This document shows positions 5,635 to 15,547 of a DNA stretch of 41,611 bases, one piece after another. Source of the DNA: an uncultured bacterium (GTDB lineage Bacteria; Patescibacteriota; Minisyncoccia; Phycocordibacterales; Phycocordibacteraceae); contig CAJEYI010000008.1 of the NCBI GenBank assembly GCA_903994795.1, positions 1-41,611 of the forward strand, given 5' to 3'. The notes beneath the pieces are model-generated. The model saw only the letters and a program-made list of their open reading frames with translations. It was not told the origin of the DNA and did not search any database. How positions within the stretch are numbered: position 1 is the stretch's first letter; each line of letters starts with the position of its first letter. A program made the position numbers and the translations under genes.

Positions 5635-8600
5635 CTACCACCAAAGCCCATCCAATCCCGCAGCTTTCATCTGTGCACGTGTGAGCGATCCAAAGTATCC
5701 TGTTGCAGGCGTAATACCATAAGCTTTTTGATACTCTATAAGCGCAGCGCGGGTGGCGAGTGAGAAATAGCCAGTCGCACCGAGTTTCGCAAGCTTCTTA
5801 CTTGCAGGCCCGGCATCTTGTGCAATGAGTAGCGTCTGCAGAGCAGCGACATTTGTGCCTTTCATCCGTACAGTGAGATTTAGAGGAGCTGCGAGTCGAG
5901 GATCGGTGCTTTGGCCAAGTACTGCAGCAAGTTTTGCCTTAAGGGTTGCTACCTGCTCCAGGAGCTGACTACGAGAAACACTTGGCGACGAGCTTGCACT
6001 ACGATTATTTTGTATAGTTCCACCACCACTCCCGCTACTGCCTCCCCCGGTACTACGCACCACAGGAACATCTTCAGGTGCATGCGGAGCAGCTCCAAAT
6101 GTTATCGTAACAGGATCACTCCACGCACCATTTCCATACGATGTAACTGCGCGAATGCGAAGATCGTATGAAGAGCCATATGAAAGATAGTAGCTGTTTA
6201 TGATGACATCTGAAGTTGCACTTGAGTCTGTAGTACTGGCAAAAGCACCTTCATCACCAGGATTTAAAGTATCGCCATGAGGCTGGAGATAATACTGATA
6301 TGACTGTATTGAAAATCCTCCAGTATCTGACGGAGCTGTCCAACTAAATGGAATTGAGAGTCCGTCTGTAGTTGCTGCAGTAGCTGTCACAATAGTTGGC
6401 GCAGTTGCAAAACCAACACTTCCTAGTGCCTGGAGTTGTGGATACATTCCGTCGGCAATGCTCCACACTGTACTGAAATCAAAATCTCCAAGTGGTCCGA
6501 TACTTGGATCTGAAGTATTTATATATCGTGAGTTATCTGTTCCATCTATATTCACTGGCGTACAGCCTTCAGGATCTCCAAGCGCAGCTACACAATTACC
6601 ATTACCAGTTGCCGTTACGTCATAGTACACAGAATTAAATTGAGGATTTGTAAGATCCAAATATCCATATATCCCACCAACTGGAGCGTTCGCACTATAA
6701 AGTGTTGCCACAGAGAAGCTCGAGCTAATAATGGTCGATGCGGCTGATGGACCACCATTTTCAGTAGACGCACTCACAAAGCCACCTGCAACTACGTATC
6801 CAAATAGCTGACCAGCTGAATACGTGCGCGTAATGCTGACGCCATCAGTATCACCATTTATATATCCTATGAGTCCACCCGTAGCAAAACCTTCCATGTT
6901 TGCATTTGAAAAACTATCTGAAATCTGTGCCCCGCCATCAACCTCTCCAATAAGTCCTCCCACTACTGTCTCTCCATTAGAACTCGCTGTACCAGTAAAT
7001 GAGCTCTTCTGAATAATTAAATCTTGTACATATCCGAAAAGACCACCCAGAGCATCGAGCTGATTTTGATTTGAGTCGTTAGAATAGACGCTTGCACTCG
7101 ATGAAACACCAACTACCTGAGTATTACCCGCAACACCAGCAATTGATCCGACCGCAAAGTCTCCCGTAATAGAACCTCCATCGAGATGAAGACTATAAAC
7201 CTGACCATCTAAGTAATTAAAGAGGCCGGCAACAGGTTCTGTCGGACGATTGATGGTAAGACTCTGAATACCATGTCCGTGACCATTAAGCACACCACTA
7301 AATTGAACAGGATTGAAACCTCGACCGTCATTCCAGTTCTGGGTATCCGAACAGTCGATGTTATTTTGCAAATCGTATGTAGCCTGTGGTGCAGTGTCCA
7401 TTTGCTGGAGCTGGAGACAACTTGTAACTTGGTATGGATTCTCAGTCGTGCCCGCACCAAATCCTTCAAATGTACTTTGTGACGAATATGTAAAATCAAC
7501 GGACTCCGCGAGTTCCTGATTTGAGCCATCGATACCTTTTATATAAAGCGTATGTGCTCCGCTGGACTCAGGTGCAGGTATGGTTGAAGTACAGCTATCG
7601 AGCTGTGTATAGCTCGCACCATCATATGCATATTCGCAGGTGACAAATGCATTACTAAAAGATACAGATGGATGCCAACCACTCTCGGTAATTGTTGTTT
7701 TTGCAGCAGGACTCGCGATTGTAACTGTCTCACAATCATTTGTGGTGAATGATCGGTCTGCGCCATAGGTAGTACTTACGCCATCAACAATAAATGCTCG
7801 ATAGTGGTACGTCGTGCCACACGTCATCTCATCCGCTTCAACAACATACTGACCAGCTGAGTATGGGCTTACCGTTGATTGCGCTATTGAACCATAGTTT
7901 GTGTCAGTGCCGTACTGAACACCAATTGTTGTAATCGAACTTGCTGAAACACTATTAATCGTGAGTCCGAGCTGTACAATCTCTGACGTCAATCCAGTAC
8001 TAATGTCTGTTGTCGTACCAGTCGTAACACTTGGAGGCAGCACGAAGCCAGCTGAGAATGTTGGGTAGTCACCATCATTTACCTGCCAACCATACACAGA
8101 ATAATCCCACGAACTCATTGGGGGATGCTCCTGATAAAAGAAATACTGATCTGTGCCTAAGGAAAATTCTTCAGTACAACCGTCTGCACTCGCATTTCCG
8201 GCGCAGTACGATTGACCAGTGTTTCCTGCGCTAAAATATCCATTCACTATTGTTCCTGCGCTAACGGTGTTCCCCACAAGCCCACCAACACTACCTCCAG
8301 CATTTTCTGTAACCAACCCAGCTGCAAATACATTAATAAATGATCCTGGCCCACTAATTGCGTGCCCGATCAAGCCACCAGTATTATCTCCGCCTGTTAC
8401 GCTTCCACTTGCGTACGCATCCGTGACAGTTATGGAATTTGCATCACCAATAAGTCCACCCACGAAAGAAGCAGCTGATACAGCTCCTTGTGTATACGCT
8501 TCATAAAGTATGGTACCTGAGGTATACCCAATCAATCCTCCAACCACAACTCCACTTCCGCTCACAGTCGCACTTGAGCTCACGTGGTGTATCGTAGATG

Positions 8601-10638
8601 AAATATCAATTCCACTAAGCCCACCTACGTGACTTACACCTGCAACCGCACCAGTAACGTTTACATTTGAAATAGTTGCATTACTTGTGTATCCAAAAAG
8701 ACCCGCAACACCACTCGACTGACTTATGTTTACCTTAATTGTGTGATTCAATCCATCGAAGTGTCCGGTGAAGGGTGTACTTATAGCCCCCATCATTGCA
8801 GCGTTTCCATCAGCGGAACAATCAAGATCATTCTCGAGAACGTAGCTTTTTGAAACATCTTGATTCACTGCTTCGAGTTGAGCACATGAAGTTATTTGGA
8901 AAGGATTTCCTAGTGATCCATCACCAAGCTCTGGTGCAGGACTTCCCCCGCCACCACTTCCTCCGTCTACTGCATATAGTGCTGCAATTTGTGGATCTGA
9001 AAGTGCACGATTGTATACGCGCACATTATCAATCGTTCCGTTAAAGTTTTCCGAGTTCCCAAGGTAGGTTGCACCGATCGTGATGTTGTCGTCACGAGTT
9101 ACGTTTATTGGAATCGGATTATCAAACGTCACAAGCGTACCATCAATATATATTTGTCGAGCATTCCCATCGTATTCAGTGACAACATGATGCCAAGTCC
9201 CATCATATAAATTTGTGCCGTTATTCGCACAACCGACGACGTCATTCCCCCACCAGTAATTATCGAGCCCATTCCCACCATTACAATCACCATAACTCGC
9301 AAGCCGGAACGCATTCGTTGCACTCTGAGTTCCATAATCTCCCCACCCAATAATGCCTTGGCCATTTGTGCCAGTAGTCTTTATCCATGCACTTAGTGTG
9401 TACGGTGAACTCCCTACAGGGATTAGGCTTGGTGACGCAACAGTCACGTACCCTGTACCATCAAATGTAATGCCTCCACTTGTCTTACCAACTCCCCACG
9501 TACTTCCTCCATTAAGAGTACCTGTGTTTCCGTTACCCGTACTATCTGTCGCTGATGTGCCTGAGCCATCATTAAATTCCCAATCAGCAACGAGCCCACT
9601 TGTAATATCATCACTCGCACAATCACTTGTCATGAACGAACTCTCGTCACTTTGACCATACCCTGAAGCACTGCCTGCCCATGTGCGGTAGTAGTACTTT
9701 GTGCTGCATGTTAGTCCAGAAAGCGTACTACTAAAATTAGTACCCGCACCAAGATCTGCACCTACTCGGTGCTCATAACTATTCTGATCTACTGCAGACG
9801 TCCTACCATACGAAACACCCCAGTCATTCACAACATCTCCACCGTCATTTGTGACAATTCCGTGAAGCACTATACCTGTCTGGGTAATTGAAGTTGGAGT
9901 ATCAAATGTTACGGTTGGTGCAGTTGTTGCTGGCGGACCCCCTCCATTATCTATTGGTGCATCAAGTGTAAATGAAATTGATTGTTCAGTTTGATTCCCA
10001 GCTACATCGGTACCACGCACATAGAGTGTGTGTGAACCAGGTGCAGGTTTTGTCATGTCGATGTCTGGACCACACGTACTACCAGGTGTTTGATAGGGGT
10101 CACTATCAAGATGATACTCACATGTTGATGAGTCTCCCCACGCAATACTTGGATTAGCCCAGTCAGCGTCAGCAATCTCAGAATTGTCCATGGGACTATT
10201 TATGATGATTGGCGGTGGTGTGTTGTCATACGTAAAGCTCACGCTCCAATTGTACTGAAAACCAGTGTAGTCGGGATTATCCCACGCACTTATATATAGG
10301 ACATGAGGTCCATCACCTGATGGAGGTGGAATAGGAATGTTGGTCGTACAATCGATCGTAGTCCATCCTGTGCTATCAGTTCCTCCTTGAGTGTCGTACG
10401 CGTATCCGCATGACTGTGCCGTTTGGCCCCAGTACTCATTCGTGATGTAGCTCGCAGCATTATAGATACCATCCGCTGCTGGAAGATTCACACCATTTGG
10501 TGGACGTGCATGAACTTTTGAAACAAGGACTGGCGCAACTGGCGCAAGAAGTAACAGCAATACAAAAACGGAGACCAGGCTCCGTGCGTTGAAGGTTTGT
10601 GCGAGCGTACAAAATTTCATGTGCGTTCTGTTTATCAT
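5635..10638 (-). CDS. Giant secreted LamG/GLUG surface protein with peptidoglycan-binding C-terminus
   Basis: A 1667-aa exported protein. After a long signal peptide (hydrophobic core VSVFVLLLLLAPVAPVLV, cleavage near VHA-R) come two bacterial Ig-like modules with paired cysteines, an FN3-like module (about 245-340), a LamG/concanavalin-like domain (about 346-555: GLVADWEFNDGSG, YTLSAWIKT, GTWHHVV, IDNVRVYNRALS), a first GLUG repeat array (about 640-815, repeated GGLIG), further Ig/FN3 modules, a second GLUG array (about 1110-1390), an FN3 module (about 1410-1515), and a C-terminal PG_binding_1-like domain (about 1590-1667) nearly matching that of the 903-aa protein. It probably binds glycans or proteins on a partner cell. 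The start could be ATG 10638 or the ATG at 10620; the signal peptide works with either. It is the downstream-facing partner of the 903-aa gene, 136 bp away. Confidence 0.83.
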   Translation of the reverse strand: MINRTHMKFCTLAQTFNARSLVSVFVLLLLLAPVAPVLVSKVHARPPNGVNLPAADGIYNAASYITNEYWGQTAQSCGYAYDTQGGTDSTGWTTIDCTTNIPIPPPSGDGPHVLYISAWDNPDYTGFQYNWSVSFTYDNTPPPIIINSPMDNSEIADADWANPSIAWGDSSTCEYHLDSDPYQTPGSTCGPDIDMTKPAPGSHTLYVRGTDVAGNQTEQSISFTLDAPIDNGGGPPATTAPTVTFDTPTSITQTGIVLHGIVTNDGGDVVNDWGVSYGRTSAVDQNSYEHRVGADLGAGTNFSSTLSGLTCSTKYYYRTWAGSASGYGQSDESSFMTSDCASDDITSGLVADWEFNDGSGTSATDSTGNGNTGTLNGGSTWGVGKTSGGITFDGTGYVTVASPSLIPVGSSPYTLSAWIKTTGTNGQGIIGWGDYGTQSATNAFRLASYGDCNGGNGLDNYWWGNDVVGCANNGTNLYDGTWHHVVTEYDGNARQIYIDGTLVTFDNPIPINVTRDDNITIGATYLGNSENFNGTIDNVRVYNRALSDPQIAALYAVDGGSGGGGSPAPELGDGSLGNPFQITSCAQLEAVNQDVSKSYVLENDLDCSADGNAAMMGAISTPFTGHFDGLNHTIKVNISQSSGVAGLFGYTSNATISNVNVTGAVAGVSHVGGLSGIDISSTIHHVSSSATVSGSGVVVGGLIGYTSGTILYEAYTQGAVSAASFVGGLIGDANSITVTDAYASGSVTGGDNTGGLIGHAISGPGSFINVFAAGLVTENAGGSVGGLVGNTVSAGTIVNGYFSAGNTGQSYCAGNASADGCTEEFSLGTDQYFFYQEHPPMSSWDYSVYGWQVNDGDYPTFSAGFVLPPSVTTGTTTDISTGLTSEIVQLGLTINSVSASSITTIGVQYGTDTNYGSIAQSTVSPYSAGQYVVEADEMTCGTTYHYRAFIVDGVSTTYGADRSFTTNDCETVTIASPAAKTTITESGWHPSVSFSNAFVTCEYAYDGASYTQLDSCTSTIPAPESSGAHTLYIKGIDGSNQELAESVDFTYSSQSTFEGFGAGTTENPYQVTSCLQLQQMDTAPQATYDLQNNIDCSDTQNWNDGRGFNPVQFSGVLNGHGHGIQSLTINRPTEPVAGLFNYLDGQVYSLHLDGGSITGDFAVGSIAGVAGNTQVVGVSSSASVYSNDSNQNQLDALGGLFGYVQDLIIQKSSFTGTASSNGETVVGGLIGEVDGGAQISDSFSNANMEGFATGGLIGYINGDTDGVSITRTYSAGQLFGYVVAGGFVSASTENGGPSAASTIISSSFSVATLYSANAPVGGIYGYLDLTNPQFNSVYYDVTATGNGNCVAALGDPEGCTPVNIDGTDNSRYINTSDPSIGPLGDFDFSTVWSIADGMYPQLQALGSVGFATAPTIVTATAATTDGLSIPFSWTAPSDTGGFSIQSYQYYLQPHGDTLNPGDEGAFASTTDSSATSDVIINSYYLSYGSSYDLRIRAVTSYGNGAWSDPVTITFGAAPHAPEDVPVVRSTGGGSSGSGGGTIQNNRSASSSPSVSRSQLLEQVATLKAKLAAVLGQSTDPRLAAPLNLTVRMKGTNVAALQTLLIAQDAGPASKKLAKLGATGYFSLATRAALIEYQKAYGITPATGYFGSLTRAQMKAAGLDGLWW

Positions 10639-12321: not shown

Positions 12322-12642
12322 TTGCGGGGGCCGGAATCGAACCGGCGTCTGGAGGTTATGCTTACCACTACAATTTTCATTGCTCGCACTTCGATTTGTG
12401 GTCTGGACTATGCCTTCATCCTGGCAGAATTGCTTCTATCTGGATGCCTACCGTCTAGTCTCTACACCTTCTCTTTCGTGTATTTGTATACACAAGAGAG
12501 CTTGGCTCGGCATTGCCGTTCGTCTACTTGTAACGGTAGACGTTAGGGTTTCACCGAATTTGGCAGGTAATCTTACGCGCAATTGCTCGCGCGCACGCCC
12601 GAATTGTTCAAGCCTCCCGAGGTACCTCTCCTCTACCCCGCT
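12322..12642 (-). tRNA. tRNA-Met (CAT), probably initiator, interrupted by a group I intron
   Basis: Exon 1 (12611-12642, 32 nt) and exon 2 (12322-12360, 39 nt) join into a 71-nt cloverleaf. The acceptor pairs GCGGGG with CCCCGC, and position 1 against 72 is A/A, so unpaired, an initiator feature. The D arm is GAGG/CCTC. The anticodon stem is GGAGG/CCTCC around the loop CTCATAA (anticodon CAT), and the T arm is GCCGG-TTCGATT-CCGGC. No CCA is encoded. The three pairs next to the anticodon loop are A:T, G:C, G:C rather than the usual three G:C pairs of bacterial initiators. The intron lies between T33 and C34. Fairly sure of tRNA and anticodon; the initiator role rests on the 1-72 mismatch. Confidence 0.9.
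12361..12610 (-). ncRNA. Group I self-splicing intron in tRNA-Met
   Basis: A 250-nt intron whose core folds by eye. P1 pairs exon GCU plus intron UGAA with UUCGGGC over a CAA loop, placing a U.G wobble exactly at the 5' splice site. P2 is CGCGC/GCGCG. P3 is CCTGCC (12562-12567) with GGTAGG (12447-12452). A CGTCTAC/GTAGACG hairpin lies in the P5 position. The Q-like stretch ATGCCGAGCCAAG follows, then a long P6 hairpin, P7 GACTA (12456-12460) with TAGTC (12406-12410), and P8 CATCC/GGATG. The last intron base is G, as needed. The small size and Q sequence resemble the tRNA introns of cyanobacteria and plastids (IC3 type). No ORF of its own is seen. Confidence 0.9.
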
Positions 12643-12767
12643 ATGTTCTATCTAGGCATCTACTGTATAAATGCCTACTCCCAAGAGTGTAAGACACATT
12701 TTGATAAAGAGCAATATTAGCTATTGGAACCAGTATATAGTACAATATACCTATACATAGTACTTTT

Positions 12768-13451
12768 ATGAAATCTGATCTCCAACATGCGGCTCAAGTT
12801 TTAAGAAAAGAAGGCAAAAGCGTTAAGGAAATTACCCGACTCCTAGGTGTCAGTCAAAGCTCTGCGAGCAGATGGTGCAAAAACATTGAACTTACTAAGG
12901 AACAAAAAGTAACCTTAGATACACACAGAAAAGAAGCTGGACTAAAAGCCCTATTACCTTGGATAGAAAAGAATAAAAAATATAAGACCAATGACATACG
13001 AATTCAAAAACAAAATGGAGAAAGTGATGTGGGTAAAATGACAGATAGGGATCTTTTTATTCTAGGATTAGGACTATATTGGGGAGAGGGATATAAAAAA
13101 GGTAGCCAAGAACTTGGATTTACAAACAGTGACCCTCAAATTATTTTGATATTTATTGAATGGCTAAGACAAAATTATCAAATTTCCAAAGATCAACTTG
13201 TGGCAAGAGTAACAATTAATGATCGTTATTCCGACAAAGCAGAAGAAATTCAAAATAAGTGGACTATGGCCACAGGTATACCACGTACCCAATTCACAAA
13301 ACCTAGTTTTATAAATACTAAAACTAGTTCCGTAACTCGAGATTCTGATACATACACTGGAACATTACGCATAAAAGTAAGAAACGGAACTTCTCTTCGG
13401 CGTAGAATATTGGCAAGTATTGTTTCTGCATCTACTCAAATAAATAGATAG
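12768..13451 (+). CDS. HTH protein with a LAGLIDADG-like domain
   Basis: A 227-aa protein. Residues about 5-45 form a helix-turn-helix (AQVLRKEGKSVKEITRLLGV, then SQSSASRWCKNIEL) like those of transposases and resolvases. From about residue 90, LFILGLGLYWGEGYKKG resembles a LAGLIDADG helix with its catalytic acid as Glu (GEG), followed by the mixed strand/helix pattern of that fold (LGFTNSDPQIILIFIEWLR). Only one such motif is seen, so it would act as a dimer if it is an endonuclease. The gene is AT-rich, reads away from the intron-bearing tRNA gene 125 bp to its left, and converges on the HEPN-like gene with 4 bp between stops. It may be a free-standing homing endonuclease or a DNA-binding regulator derived from one. 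Function not proven. Confidence 0.6.
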   Translation: MKSDLQHAAQVLRKEGKSVKEITRLLGVSQSSASRWCKNIELTKEQKVTLDTHRKEAGLKALLPWIEKNKKYKTNDIRIQKQNGESDVGKMTDRDLFILGLGLYWGEGYKKGSQELGFTNSDPQIILIFIEWLRQNYQISKDQLVARVTINDRYSDKAEEIQNKWTMATGIPRTQFTKPSFINTKTSSVTRDSDTYTGTLRIKVRNGTSLRRRILASIVSASTQINR

Positions 13452-13455
13452 TCAC

Positions 13456-14055
13456 TTAGATCACGTGAAACTCTTTAAACACATTCTCGTAGTGATTGAT
13501 GGTACGAAACGCAACATGGTCTGACAATTCAAACTCCGAACCTCTGTGCGCAATTTCGTTTCGAACCTTGTGTGCTTCCCAAGCATCATTGAGTGTATGA
13601 AATTGTGCTGGATTTGCATTCTTTAGCTTGTCCCCAATGCTGCTTCCGAAATACCCGAGCTTCGTAAGTAATTCTTCAAGCATAATGTCTGCTTCAATAA
13701 TTGCCTGACGCCAATCGCTTTGCTGCGTACTCTCAATTAAATTGCGGATGTACGTCCATCGTGAATCTTCGAGCTTTGCATCCGCTTCCTTCTTTGAAAT
13801 GGTTGTGTATTTTTGTGCGTCCTCTGCCTTTACTTGATAATACCGTGCTGAGAGATAGACAAGCACACCTATACAAATGAGTGAGAAAAGATACGCAAAG
13901 AGTGTGAAGAATATCCAAATAGTATTCAGAACATCACTTATGGAATTAAATGAAAGTGCCTGTCCAGAAAATACGAGATTGTATAACAGCTGGAAAAAGT
14001 ATGCGACGTTGAGAAAATGTATGGAGGGACCAACAGGATACACAGAAGGATTCAT
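13456..14055 (-). CDS. Membrane protein with a HEPN-like C-terminal domain
   Basis: A 199-aa protein. Residues about 15-35 are hydrophobic and amphipathic, and residues about 43-70 form a strong transmembrane helix (TIWIFFTLFAYLFSLICIGV). A charged linker follows, then a helical domain (about 110-190) with ADIMLEELLTKLGYFGSSIG and VRNEIAHRG. The RNEIAH sequence is the R-x4-H motif of HEPN domains, known in RNases and nucleotide-binding proteins. The ATG at 14055 is chosen because it follows the gatA stop (14060) and has TATACT exactly 6 nt upstream; an ATG at 14091 inside gatA is the alternative. An AAAGGA touches the ATG but has no spacing to act as a ribosome site. It may be expressed behind gatA or from its own start. 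Confidence 0.62.
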   Translation of the reverse strand: MNPSVYPVGPSIHFLNVAYFFQLLYNLVFSGQALSFNSISDVLNTIWIFFTLFAYLFSLICIGVLVYLSARYYQVKAEDAQKYTTISKKEADAKLEDSRWTYIRNLIESTQQSDWRQAIIEADIMLEELLTKLGYFGSSIGDKLKNANPAQFHTLNDAWEAHKVRNEIAHRGSEFELSDHVAFRTINHYENVFKEFHVI

Positions 14056-14059
14056 TCCT

Positions 14060-15547
14060 TTAGTATACCGTTTCTCCGGTGACTGCTGCACCTATTGTGA
14101 ACAGGAGATCTTCTGCACCTTTTGGTGCAGTGAATTGAATTCCAGCTGGGATATTTTTGTCACCTCGCGCAACGGTACCCATTGGAACAGAGAGTGCAGG
14201 GAGTCCGGTAAGATTTGCTGTCACCGTAAAAATGTCTTCAAGGTACATTGAAACTGGATCGCTCTTCTCGCCAATAACGAATGCTGGTGTCGGCATGGTT
14301 GGAGTTGCGATCACATCTACCTCTGCTAGTGCATTTGTGTATTCTGTAGCGAGCTGACTTCGTGCGGCAAGTGCTTTGCGATAGTAGGCATCAATGTAGC
14401 CTGCGGAAAGTACGAATGTGCCGAGAAGAATTCGACGCTTTGATTCGTCACCAAATCCTTCAGTACGACTCTCGAGATAATCATCGAGAAGTGTCTTCCC
14501 TCTCGCTGCATGCCCATAACGAATACCGTCGAATCGGGAAAGGTTTGTGGAAACTTCTGCAAAGTTAATGATGTAGTACGCAGCGATCGCATATGAACTT
14601 GTAGGAAGTGCAATGTCGATCACTTCGTGACCTTCTGCTTTAAGCGTTTCAAGAGTTGCTTCAAAATTCTTTGCAACATCTGGGTCAAGACCTTTTTCGA
14701 GCAGGTGTCGAGGCACGCCAATCTTTAGTGTTTTCTTTTGTGACTGAATCGCATCTGCTACTGGGTATGTAAAGTCGGCAGGAATTGTTGTAGAGTCGAG
14801 TGGATCATGACCTTTAATAGCATTGAAAAGTATCTTTGCGTCTGCGACTGTCTTTGTGATTGGACCGGCTTGATCAAAAGATGATGCCGCAGCGATGAGT
14901 CCGGATCGTGATACTGCACCGTATGTAGGTTTGAGACCAACAACACCACAATAGCTAGATGGATTTCGAACTGAACCTCCAGTGTCAGTACCGAGAGCTG
15001 CAATGGTAAGGTTCGCAGCGACAGCGGCGGCGGAGCCGCCGCTTGTGCCTCCTGCAACTCTACCAGTATCGTGCGGGTTCTTTGTCACTCCATACGCTGA
15101 ATTTTCTGTAGAGCCACCAAGTGCAAACTCGTCCATGTTGGTTCGACCTATAAAGATCGCGCCTTGTGCTCGTAGCTTTGCGGCCACTGTTGAGTCGTAT
15201 GTTGCTTTATAGTTCTCAAGCATCTTTGCTGAAGCACCTGCGATACGTCCATCAATCAAGATGTTGTCCTTTGTAGCAACTGGAATACCGCACATCAGTG
15301 GAAGTGCTTCGAGTGCAGTTGGTCCTCCCGCAATTGCATCATCAATTTGCTTTTGTGCTGCAGCAATTAAAGCATCGGTTGTTGCGTCAGAAAAAAGTTC
15401 ACGGAATGCATTCAATTCAGTATTTTGTGCAAGCGATGCTGAAGCACAGGCCTCGAAAAGTTCGGGCACAGTACACTCTCGCGCGCGAAGCGCGCGAGCT
15501 GCCTCAGCAATAGTTAGCGTATTAAGTTTGTCCGTTGAAATAGCCAT
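14060..15547 (-). CDS. gatA: Asp-tRNA(Asn)/Glu-tRNA(Gln) amidotransferase subunit A
   Basis: The amidase subunit of GatCAB releases ammonia from glutamine or asparagine to amidate mischarged Glu-tRNA(Gln) or Asp-tRNA(Asn), in the cytoplasm. At 495 aa it has the normal length. The amidase signature is complete: the catalytic Lys in GIPVATKDN (K93), GGTSGGSAAAVAA (166-178) and the nucleophile Ser in LGTDTGGSVRNP (S192). The position normally holding the cis-Ser (first Ser of GGSSGGS) is Thr168 here, a mild oddity. It starts 3 bp after the gatC stop, so gatC and gatA form one operon. gatB is not in the window and is probably elsewhere. Identity is very safe. Confidence 0.96.
   Translation of the reverse strand: MAISTDKLNTLTIAEAARALRARECTVPELFEACASASLAQNTELNAFRELFSDATTDALIAAAQKQIDDAIAGGPTALEALPLMCGIPVATKDNILIDGRIAGASAKMLENYKATYDSTVAAKLRAQGAIFIGRTNMDEFALGGSTENSAYGVTKNPHDTGRVAGGTSGGSAAAVAANLTIAALGTDTGGSVRNPSSYCGVVGLKPTYGAVSRSGLIAAASSFDQAGPITKTVADAKILFNAIKGHDPLDSTTIPADFTYPVADAIQSQKKTLKIGVPRHLLEKGLDPDVAKNFEATLETLKAEGHEVIDIALPTSSYAIAAYYIINFAEVSTNLSRFDGIRYGHAARGKTLLDDYLESRTEGFGDESKRRILLGTFVLSAGYIDAYYRKALAARSQLATEYTNALAEVDVIATPTMPTPAFVIGEKSDPVSMYLEDIFTVTANLTGLPALSVPMGTVARGDKNIPAGIQFTAPKGAEDLLFTIGAAVTGETVY

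Follow-up and report, generated by a model that had tools for sequence, protein, structure and literature searches.

Does a reduced bacterial genome let each of its translation starts hinge on a single ribozyme? The question is raised by positions 12322-12642 of the window (the whole 41,611-nucleotide stretch of DNA that was analysed, which is contig 8 of a 902 kb genome assembled in 66 contigs and estimated to be 96% complete), for which the original prediction, made for a CPR-type host that is indeed a member of the Patescibacteria, had proposed an initiator-type tRNA-Met interrupted by a compact group I intron. We address in turn the identity of the gene and of its intron, the copy number of the initiator tRNA, the distribution of the intron among bacteria and among congeners, and the part that a neighbouring gene may play in its spread.

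The split gene and its ribozyme

The gene lies on the minus strand with its exon and intron borders where they had been placed: exon 1 (nucleotides 1-33; 12642-12611, AGCGGGGTAGAGGAGAGGTACCTCGGGAGGCT) is followed by an intron of 250 nucleotides devoid of an open reading frame (12610-12361), which ends in the expected G at 12361, and then by exon 2 (12360-12322, CATAACCTCCAGACGCCGGTTCGATTCCGGCCCCCGCAA), which runs from C34 to the discriminator base A73 and does not encode the CCA end. Both exons are matched by the spliced query (exon 1 at 100%) and, once joined, they fold into a cloverleaf with a 6-bp acceptor stem bearing an A1.A72 mismatch, a D stem with A11:U24, an anticodon loop CUCAUAA that carries the anticodon CAU, and a T stem GCCGG/CCGGC. 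It is on account of these features, which include a 1:72 pair that is not of the Watson-Crick type and a purine 11:pyrimidine 24 pair, that we read the gene, as had been done before, as an initiator tRNA. The run of three G:C pairs beside the anticodon loop is absent, the pairs being A29:U41, G30:C40 and G31:C39, and comparable exceptions are found among the initiator tRNAs of mycoplasmas. The original prediction had singled out these same pairs in connection with the intron; they are present but have no tie to it, since they recur in the intact fMet genes of congeners, many of the intronless ones being identical over all 73 nucleotides. That the gene should encode instead an elongator tRNA-Met or a tRNA-Ile2(CAU) is highly improbable, for the CAU anticodon and the existence of CPR elongator Met or Ile2 genes that likewise harbor 33|34 introns, both compatible with this alternative, are set against the initiator features at 1:72 and 11:24 and against a sequence that closely resembles the fMet of other bacteria and differs from the elongator genes recovered in the same searches. 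An ARAGORN run did not detect the split tRNA, and a promoter scan of the region gave nothing above chance. Standard tRNA finders miss split genes, and CPR genomes can therefore seem to lack an initiator tRNA.

A covariance-model search, the check suggested along with the prediction, placed the intron well within its class: the match to Rfam RF00028 (Intron_gpI) reaches 71.8 bits (E 2e-16) for a gathering score of 50, and R1, a covariance model of the split gene, gives 304 bits. The borders of the Rfam match (12383-12679 or 12383-12619) misplaced P1 and P2 and were discarded in favor of the exon-based ones. Helices P1, P2, P3, P4, P5, P6, P7, P8 and P9 are all present, among them the four core helices that had been paired by eye at the outset. 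P1 (12597-12613) pairs the exon end GCU33 and the intron's UGAA with UUCGGGC and contains the U33.G pair of the 5' splice site, which is U.G in 15 of 16 congeners and C-G in the remaining one; P3 is formed by CCUGCC (12562-12567) and GGUAGG (12447-12452), with 99% of cells paired and one compensated pair; P7, the guanosine-binding helix, is formed by GACUA (12456-12460) and UAGUC (12406-12410) and is invariant in the 16 congeners; and the P8 hairpin (12417-12446) is 100% paired, again with one compensated pair. The 3' strands of P3 and P7 were placed with the covariation alignment, P10 appears weak by eye, and the last intron base is G in all congeneric homologues compared. Taken over the 16 congeneric genes of the covariation sample (a 17th, with a long P6 insert, was omitted), 95.5% of the cells of the P1-P9 structure pair and 18 pairs have changed on both sides, compared with 8.9 +/- 1.8 pairs in shuffles and 2-6 pairs in structures slid by 1-3 columns, the effect of relatedness being removed by the slid controls and not by the shuffles. 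The tRNA stems of the spliced exons are 100% paired in the 16 species and display three compensated pairs in the T stem. The compensated changes in the intron and in the T arm thus indicate that selection acts on the intron and on the exons alike.

We conclude that the intron is real and conserved and that it is very probably self-splicing. By analogy with the chemistry of its family, a guanosine or GTP held in P7 would attack after U33, itself held in P1 by the U.G pair, whereupon the freed U33 would attack behind the terminal G of the intron, and ligation of the exons would yield the loop C32 U33 C34 A35 U36 A37 A38. Excision by proteins without self-splicing, as happens with the bulge-helix-bulge introns of archaeal tRNAs, is hardly credible as a substitute for this route; the intron does sit in the anticodon loop, and dependence on helper proteins in vivo is widespread among natural group I introns, but removal by proteins would leave unexplained a complete and conserved ribozyme core with an invariant P7 in 16 species, a U.G splice-site pair and a terminal G. 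We therefore favor, with a probability of about 0.9, the reading of the locus as the gene of an initiator tRNA(CAU) into which a group I intron is inserted at U33|C34. One congener (G049, L211:1001-1285) departs from the usual splice site in that C replaces U at position 33, so that exon 1 ends in GGCC and the splice-site pair becomes C-G.

Initiator tRNA copy number

A second, uninterrupted tRNA-fMet, which according to the original prediction would mark this copy as dead, was sought in the 66 contigs of the 96% complete genome and none was found: CAU is the anticodon of none of the 32 uninterrupted tRNAs found there, a DNA search with the spliced sequence matched just the two exons and no other fMet, and a relaxed tRNA search produced no convincing further fMet gene. 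The split gene is thus probably the sole initiator tRNA of the genome. Elongator tRNA-Met, tRNA-Phe and tRNA-Asp were also not found in this genome, absences that are probably assembly gaps; the Met and Asp genes are adjacent in relatives, so one gap could account for both. These absences, together with the fragmented and slightly incomplete assembly, lend some weight to the idea of a decaying split gene whose working counterpart has fallen into a gap. We nonetheless regard it as unlikely, inasmuch as the exons have kept their integrity in this genome and bear the mark of compensatory selection in 16 congeners, and an intact second copy occurs in a single one of 17 genomes with the split gene, G048, which is 75% complete with 3% contamination and whose two fMet copies have distant flanking genes.

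Other features of the same genome deserve mention. A group I intron also lies between nucleotides 35 and 36 of a tRNA-Asn(GUU) gene (L002:1199-1830, contig C24), where it carries an HNH-like open reading frame (L002:1257-1694), and an intact tRNA-Asn is present on contig C2; the 23S rRNA gene (L003:1501-1747, contig C9) contains a weak group I match of 35.8 bits. Within the window, 5635-10638 on the minus strand encodes a surface-type protein of 1667 amino acids with laminin-G-like, fibronectin III and peptidoglycan-binding domains.

A widespread intron that is optional in the genus

The original prediction regarded the gene as unusual, a judgment that, as far as the kind of intron is concerned, did not survive comparison with other bacteria. 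When one genome per species was scanned with a DNA pattern (a G directly before the 3' half of fMet), at least 113 stretches were obtained, and 61 of the first 80 proved to be full-length homologues under R1, a model that includes the exons, which add to its scores. Among the matches listed, the same insertion occupies at least 54 loci in 13 non-CPR phyla (Cyanobacteriota 12, Omnitrophota 8, Bacteroidota 8, Nitrospirota 7, and others) plus seven CPR loci, one of them an elongator-type gene, and full-length scores in those 13 phyla and in other CPR range, again among the matches listed, from 110 to 208 bits. About 64 of 380 CPR genomes contain an intron-sized R1 match of at least 60 bits, and the CPR loci fetched comprise fMet as well as elongator Met or Ile2 genes, split mostly at 33|34. 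By insertion site and by sequence homology, the intron of the window belongs to a pan-bacterial fMet U33|C34 lineage. In a tree built on intron columns only, the 33|34 introns of the genus form one clade (SH-aLRT 99); the fMet introns of other CPR and of Omnitrophota are close to it, and those of cyanobacteria fall in another part of the large group to which all of them belong. The elongator Met/Ile2(CAU) tRNAs of CPR with 33|34 group I introns are found at L247, L248, L250, L251, L256, L258, L260, L262 and L263.

What we describe is accordingly an element of a known kind, in a group of hosts that has received little study. The group I intron of cyanobacterial tRNA-fMet, to which the original prediction had correctly alluded, is published (PMC8450103, in the passage citing Biniszkiewicz 1994 and Paquin 1997; PMC1995217), and the introns of Synechocystis PCC 6803 and Gloeobacter share with that of the window the gene, the anticodon loop, the U33|C34 site (as seen in the 12 cyanobacterial loci fetched) and a homologous core. 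They differ from it in host group and in tree position, and the Synechocystis intron encodes I-Ssp6803I, whereas that of the window lacks an open reading frame and may be served in trans by a neighbouring gene. Group I introns in CPR tRNA genes, which share host group and gene class with ours, are mentioned generally in PMC8172020, in passages that give no gene, site or structure. The CPR rRNA introns of PMC11270868, a text from which the word tRNA is absent, are likewise mobile introns of CPR, but they reside in rRNA genes and carry LAGLIDADG nuclease frames inside the intron.

Comparison with the initiator tRNAs of relatives, also part of the original proposal, revealed three allele states. 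Across 93 congeneric genomes the 73-nucleotide spliced query aligned whole in about 47 (a few of them divergent), fMet is split at U33|C34 in 17, and it is split at U36|A37 in another 17. The tRNA is preceded in the conserved gene order by an amidase (GatA-like F4, 14060-15547, minus strand; PF01425, E 1e-131) and by F5 (13456-14091, minus strand), a gene without a Pfam match. In the F5 protein tree the states are scattered, with starred branches forcing at least six changes for the 33|34 intron and at least seven for the 36|37 intron, and close sisters (the window's genome and G089, for example) differ in fMet state; F5 being linked to the tRNA, its tree does not give an independent history of the hosts. 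The 33|34 intron is, then, an optional element that is quickly gained or lost at a syntenic locus. The genus offers a natural experiment, with one locus in intact, 33|34 and 36|37 states, with and without a candidate endonuclease, that renders the spread of tRNA introns lacking a reading frame directly testable.

The 36|37 introns (L224-L239, e.g. L227:1001-1322) constitute a second group I intron, unrelated to the first; the possibility that they are the 33|34 intron shifted by 3 nt was rejected, as they form a separate lineage in the intron tree, where they join the tRNA-Asn introns at a point at which long branches meet. A similar insert of about 90 nucleotides with CCCCATTCNNATGGGG recurs in introns that are unrelated, of both the 33|34 and the 36|37 kind, where it occupies the P6 region (L209:1157-1172, L224:1191-1206, L225:1208-1223, L229:1206-1221 and L043:295-310); it matches no Rfam family and is possibly a small mobile RNA element.

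The neighbouring gene and the homing hypothesis

An intron without a reading frame of its own would most likely have had its spread aided in trans, and a candidate lies next to it: an optional gene of 227 amino acids (12768-13451, plus strand), divergent from the tRNA, with an N-terminal HTH and a LAGLIDADG-like C-terminal domain. It sits between F5 and the tRNA in six of the 17 33|34 alleles, the other 11 being without it, and the six closest copies (at least 52% identity, that of the window included) all lie some 50-130 nt upstream of a 33|34-split fMet; none was seen beside the intact or 36|37 fMet alleles examined. Two congeners, one with gene and intron (G002) and one with neither (G008), align over 904 bp with 87% identity as far as the stop codon of F5, past which the exons alone match; a gene that is optional at a syntenic site, adjoining its presumed target, is the layout expected of a homing endonuclease. 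The association of gene and intron yields 5e-5 in Fisher's test, which ignores ancestry, and phylogenetically independent pairs number two to four with the intron against zero, an underpowered comparison (p 0.125-0.5) that falls short of a tree-corrected link; the connection is hence suggestive.

As to the protein, its AlphaFold model (pLDDT 92) has the HTH, a long helix and a mixed alpha/beta C-terminal domain, and Pfam and NCBIfam recognise the HTH alone. In a profile search with the C-terminal domain, LYWGEG, whose Glu is invariant in 28 sequences, falls opposite LYVAEG, the second LAGLIDADG motif of I-DmoI, at a sub-threshold E of 0.19, and one of the 28 family sequences matches LAGLIDADG_3 (E 0.15); fold comparison was negative, a Foldseek search with the protein returning no LAGLIDADG structure. 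From its sequence and setting we hypothesise that the gene encodes a free-standing homing endonuclease.

Its relatives make up a previously unrecognised family that adjoins tRNAs both in CPR genomes and in large viral contigs, and it is in this optional, tRNA-linked family that the value of follow-up lies. Relatives were found in 58 of 93 congeneric and 87 of 287 CPR genomes; a tRNA gene, intact or split, is close by in 58 of the 59 CPR loci fetched, the remaining one ending at a contig edge. In most of these loci the tRNA follows the gene immediately, in the same orientation and often with an overlap; in some the two diverge and stand about 90-130 nt apart. The three copies of the window's own genome all adjoin tRNAs (fMet, Ile-UAU and Gly-UCC). 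The family is optional and multi-copy, with copies that are sometimes degenerate (loci including L270-L328 and L345-L367). In the CPR sample a copy occurs within 300 nt of 22 of 95 intron-sized R1 matches and of one of 27 intact CAU tRNAs, a difference (p 0.02) that presumes the family search to have covered genomes up to G381. Of the 21 relatives scanned in IMG/VR, 18 lie no more than 300 nt from a tRNA, many of them inside tRNA arrays of large contigs, and no annotated phage homologue of the neighbouring gene was found in INPHARED.

Under collaborative homing, the endonuclease putatively encoded by the neighbouring gene would cut intronless fMet alleles, and the intron would shield its own. 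An arrangement of this kind has been described for F-CphI and the psbA intron of cyanophage S-PM2 (PMC6083498), where an intron without its own nuclease adjoins a nuclease-like gene and would likewise protect its allele; here the host is a bacterial tRNA gene, and the putative nuclease is of another family. SegB (PMC13096335) is similarly a free-standing homing endonuclease among the tRNA genes of T4-type phages; its domain architecture differs from that of the neighbouring protein, whose family consists of candidate genes, found in viral contigs too. There is about an even chance that the gene is rather a regulator or an unrelated tRNA-targeting insertion, linked to the 33|34 intron by shared ancestry or by chance, as the lone recognised HTH, the negative fold search, the scarcity of independent pairs and the fact that most family copies adjoin intact tRNAs would all allow. 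A regulator, however, accords less well than a selfish element with patchy, multi-copy and partly degenerate genes, empty sites, varied tRNAs and viral tRNA arrays, and a chance link accords poorly with six of six closest copies going with 33|34 alleles. Collaborative homing of the 33|34 intron with the neighbouring gene strikes us as possible at slightly below even odds. The wider proposal, that undescribed free-standing HTH/LAGLIDADG-like homing endonucleases for tRNA genes are common to CPR and tRNA-rich large viral contigs and collaborate at fMet with the intron, so that the initiator gene would have been repeatedly invaded by two unrelated introns and one nuclease gene, is advanced tentatively, the odds being somewhat against it. 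Members of the family beside intact tRNAs of other kinds imply that an intron would not always be needed for immunity.

Lastly, one contig catalogued as viral (IMGVR_UViG_3300018080_004888; L364 and L397) carries two intron-split CAU tRNAs together with a fragment of a family gene.
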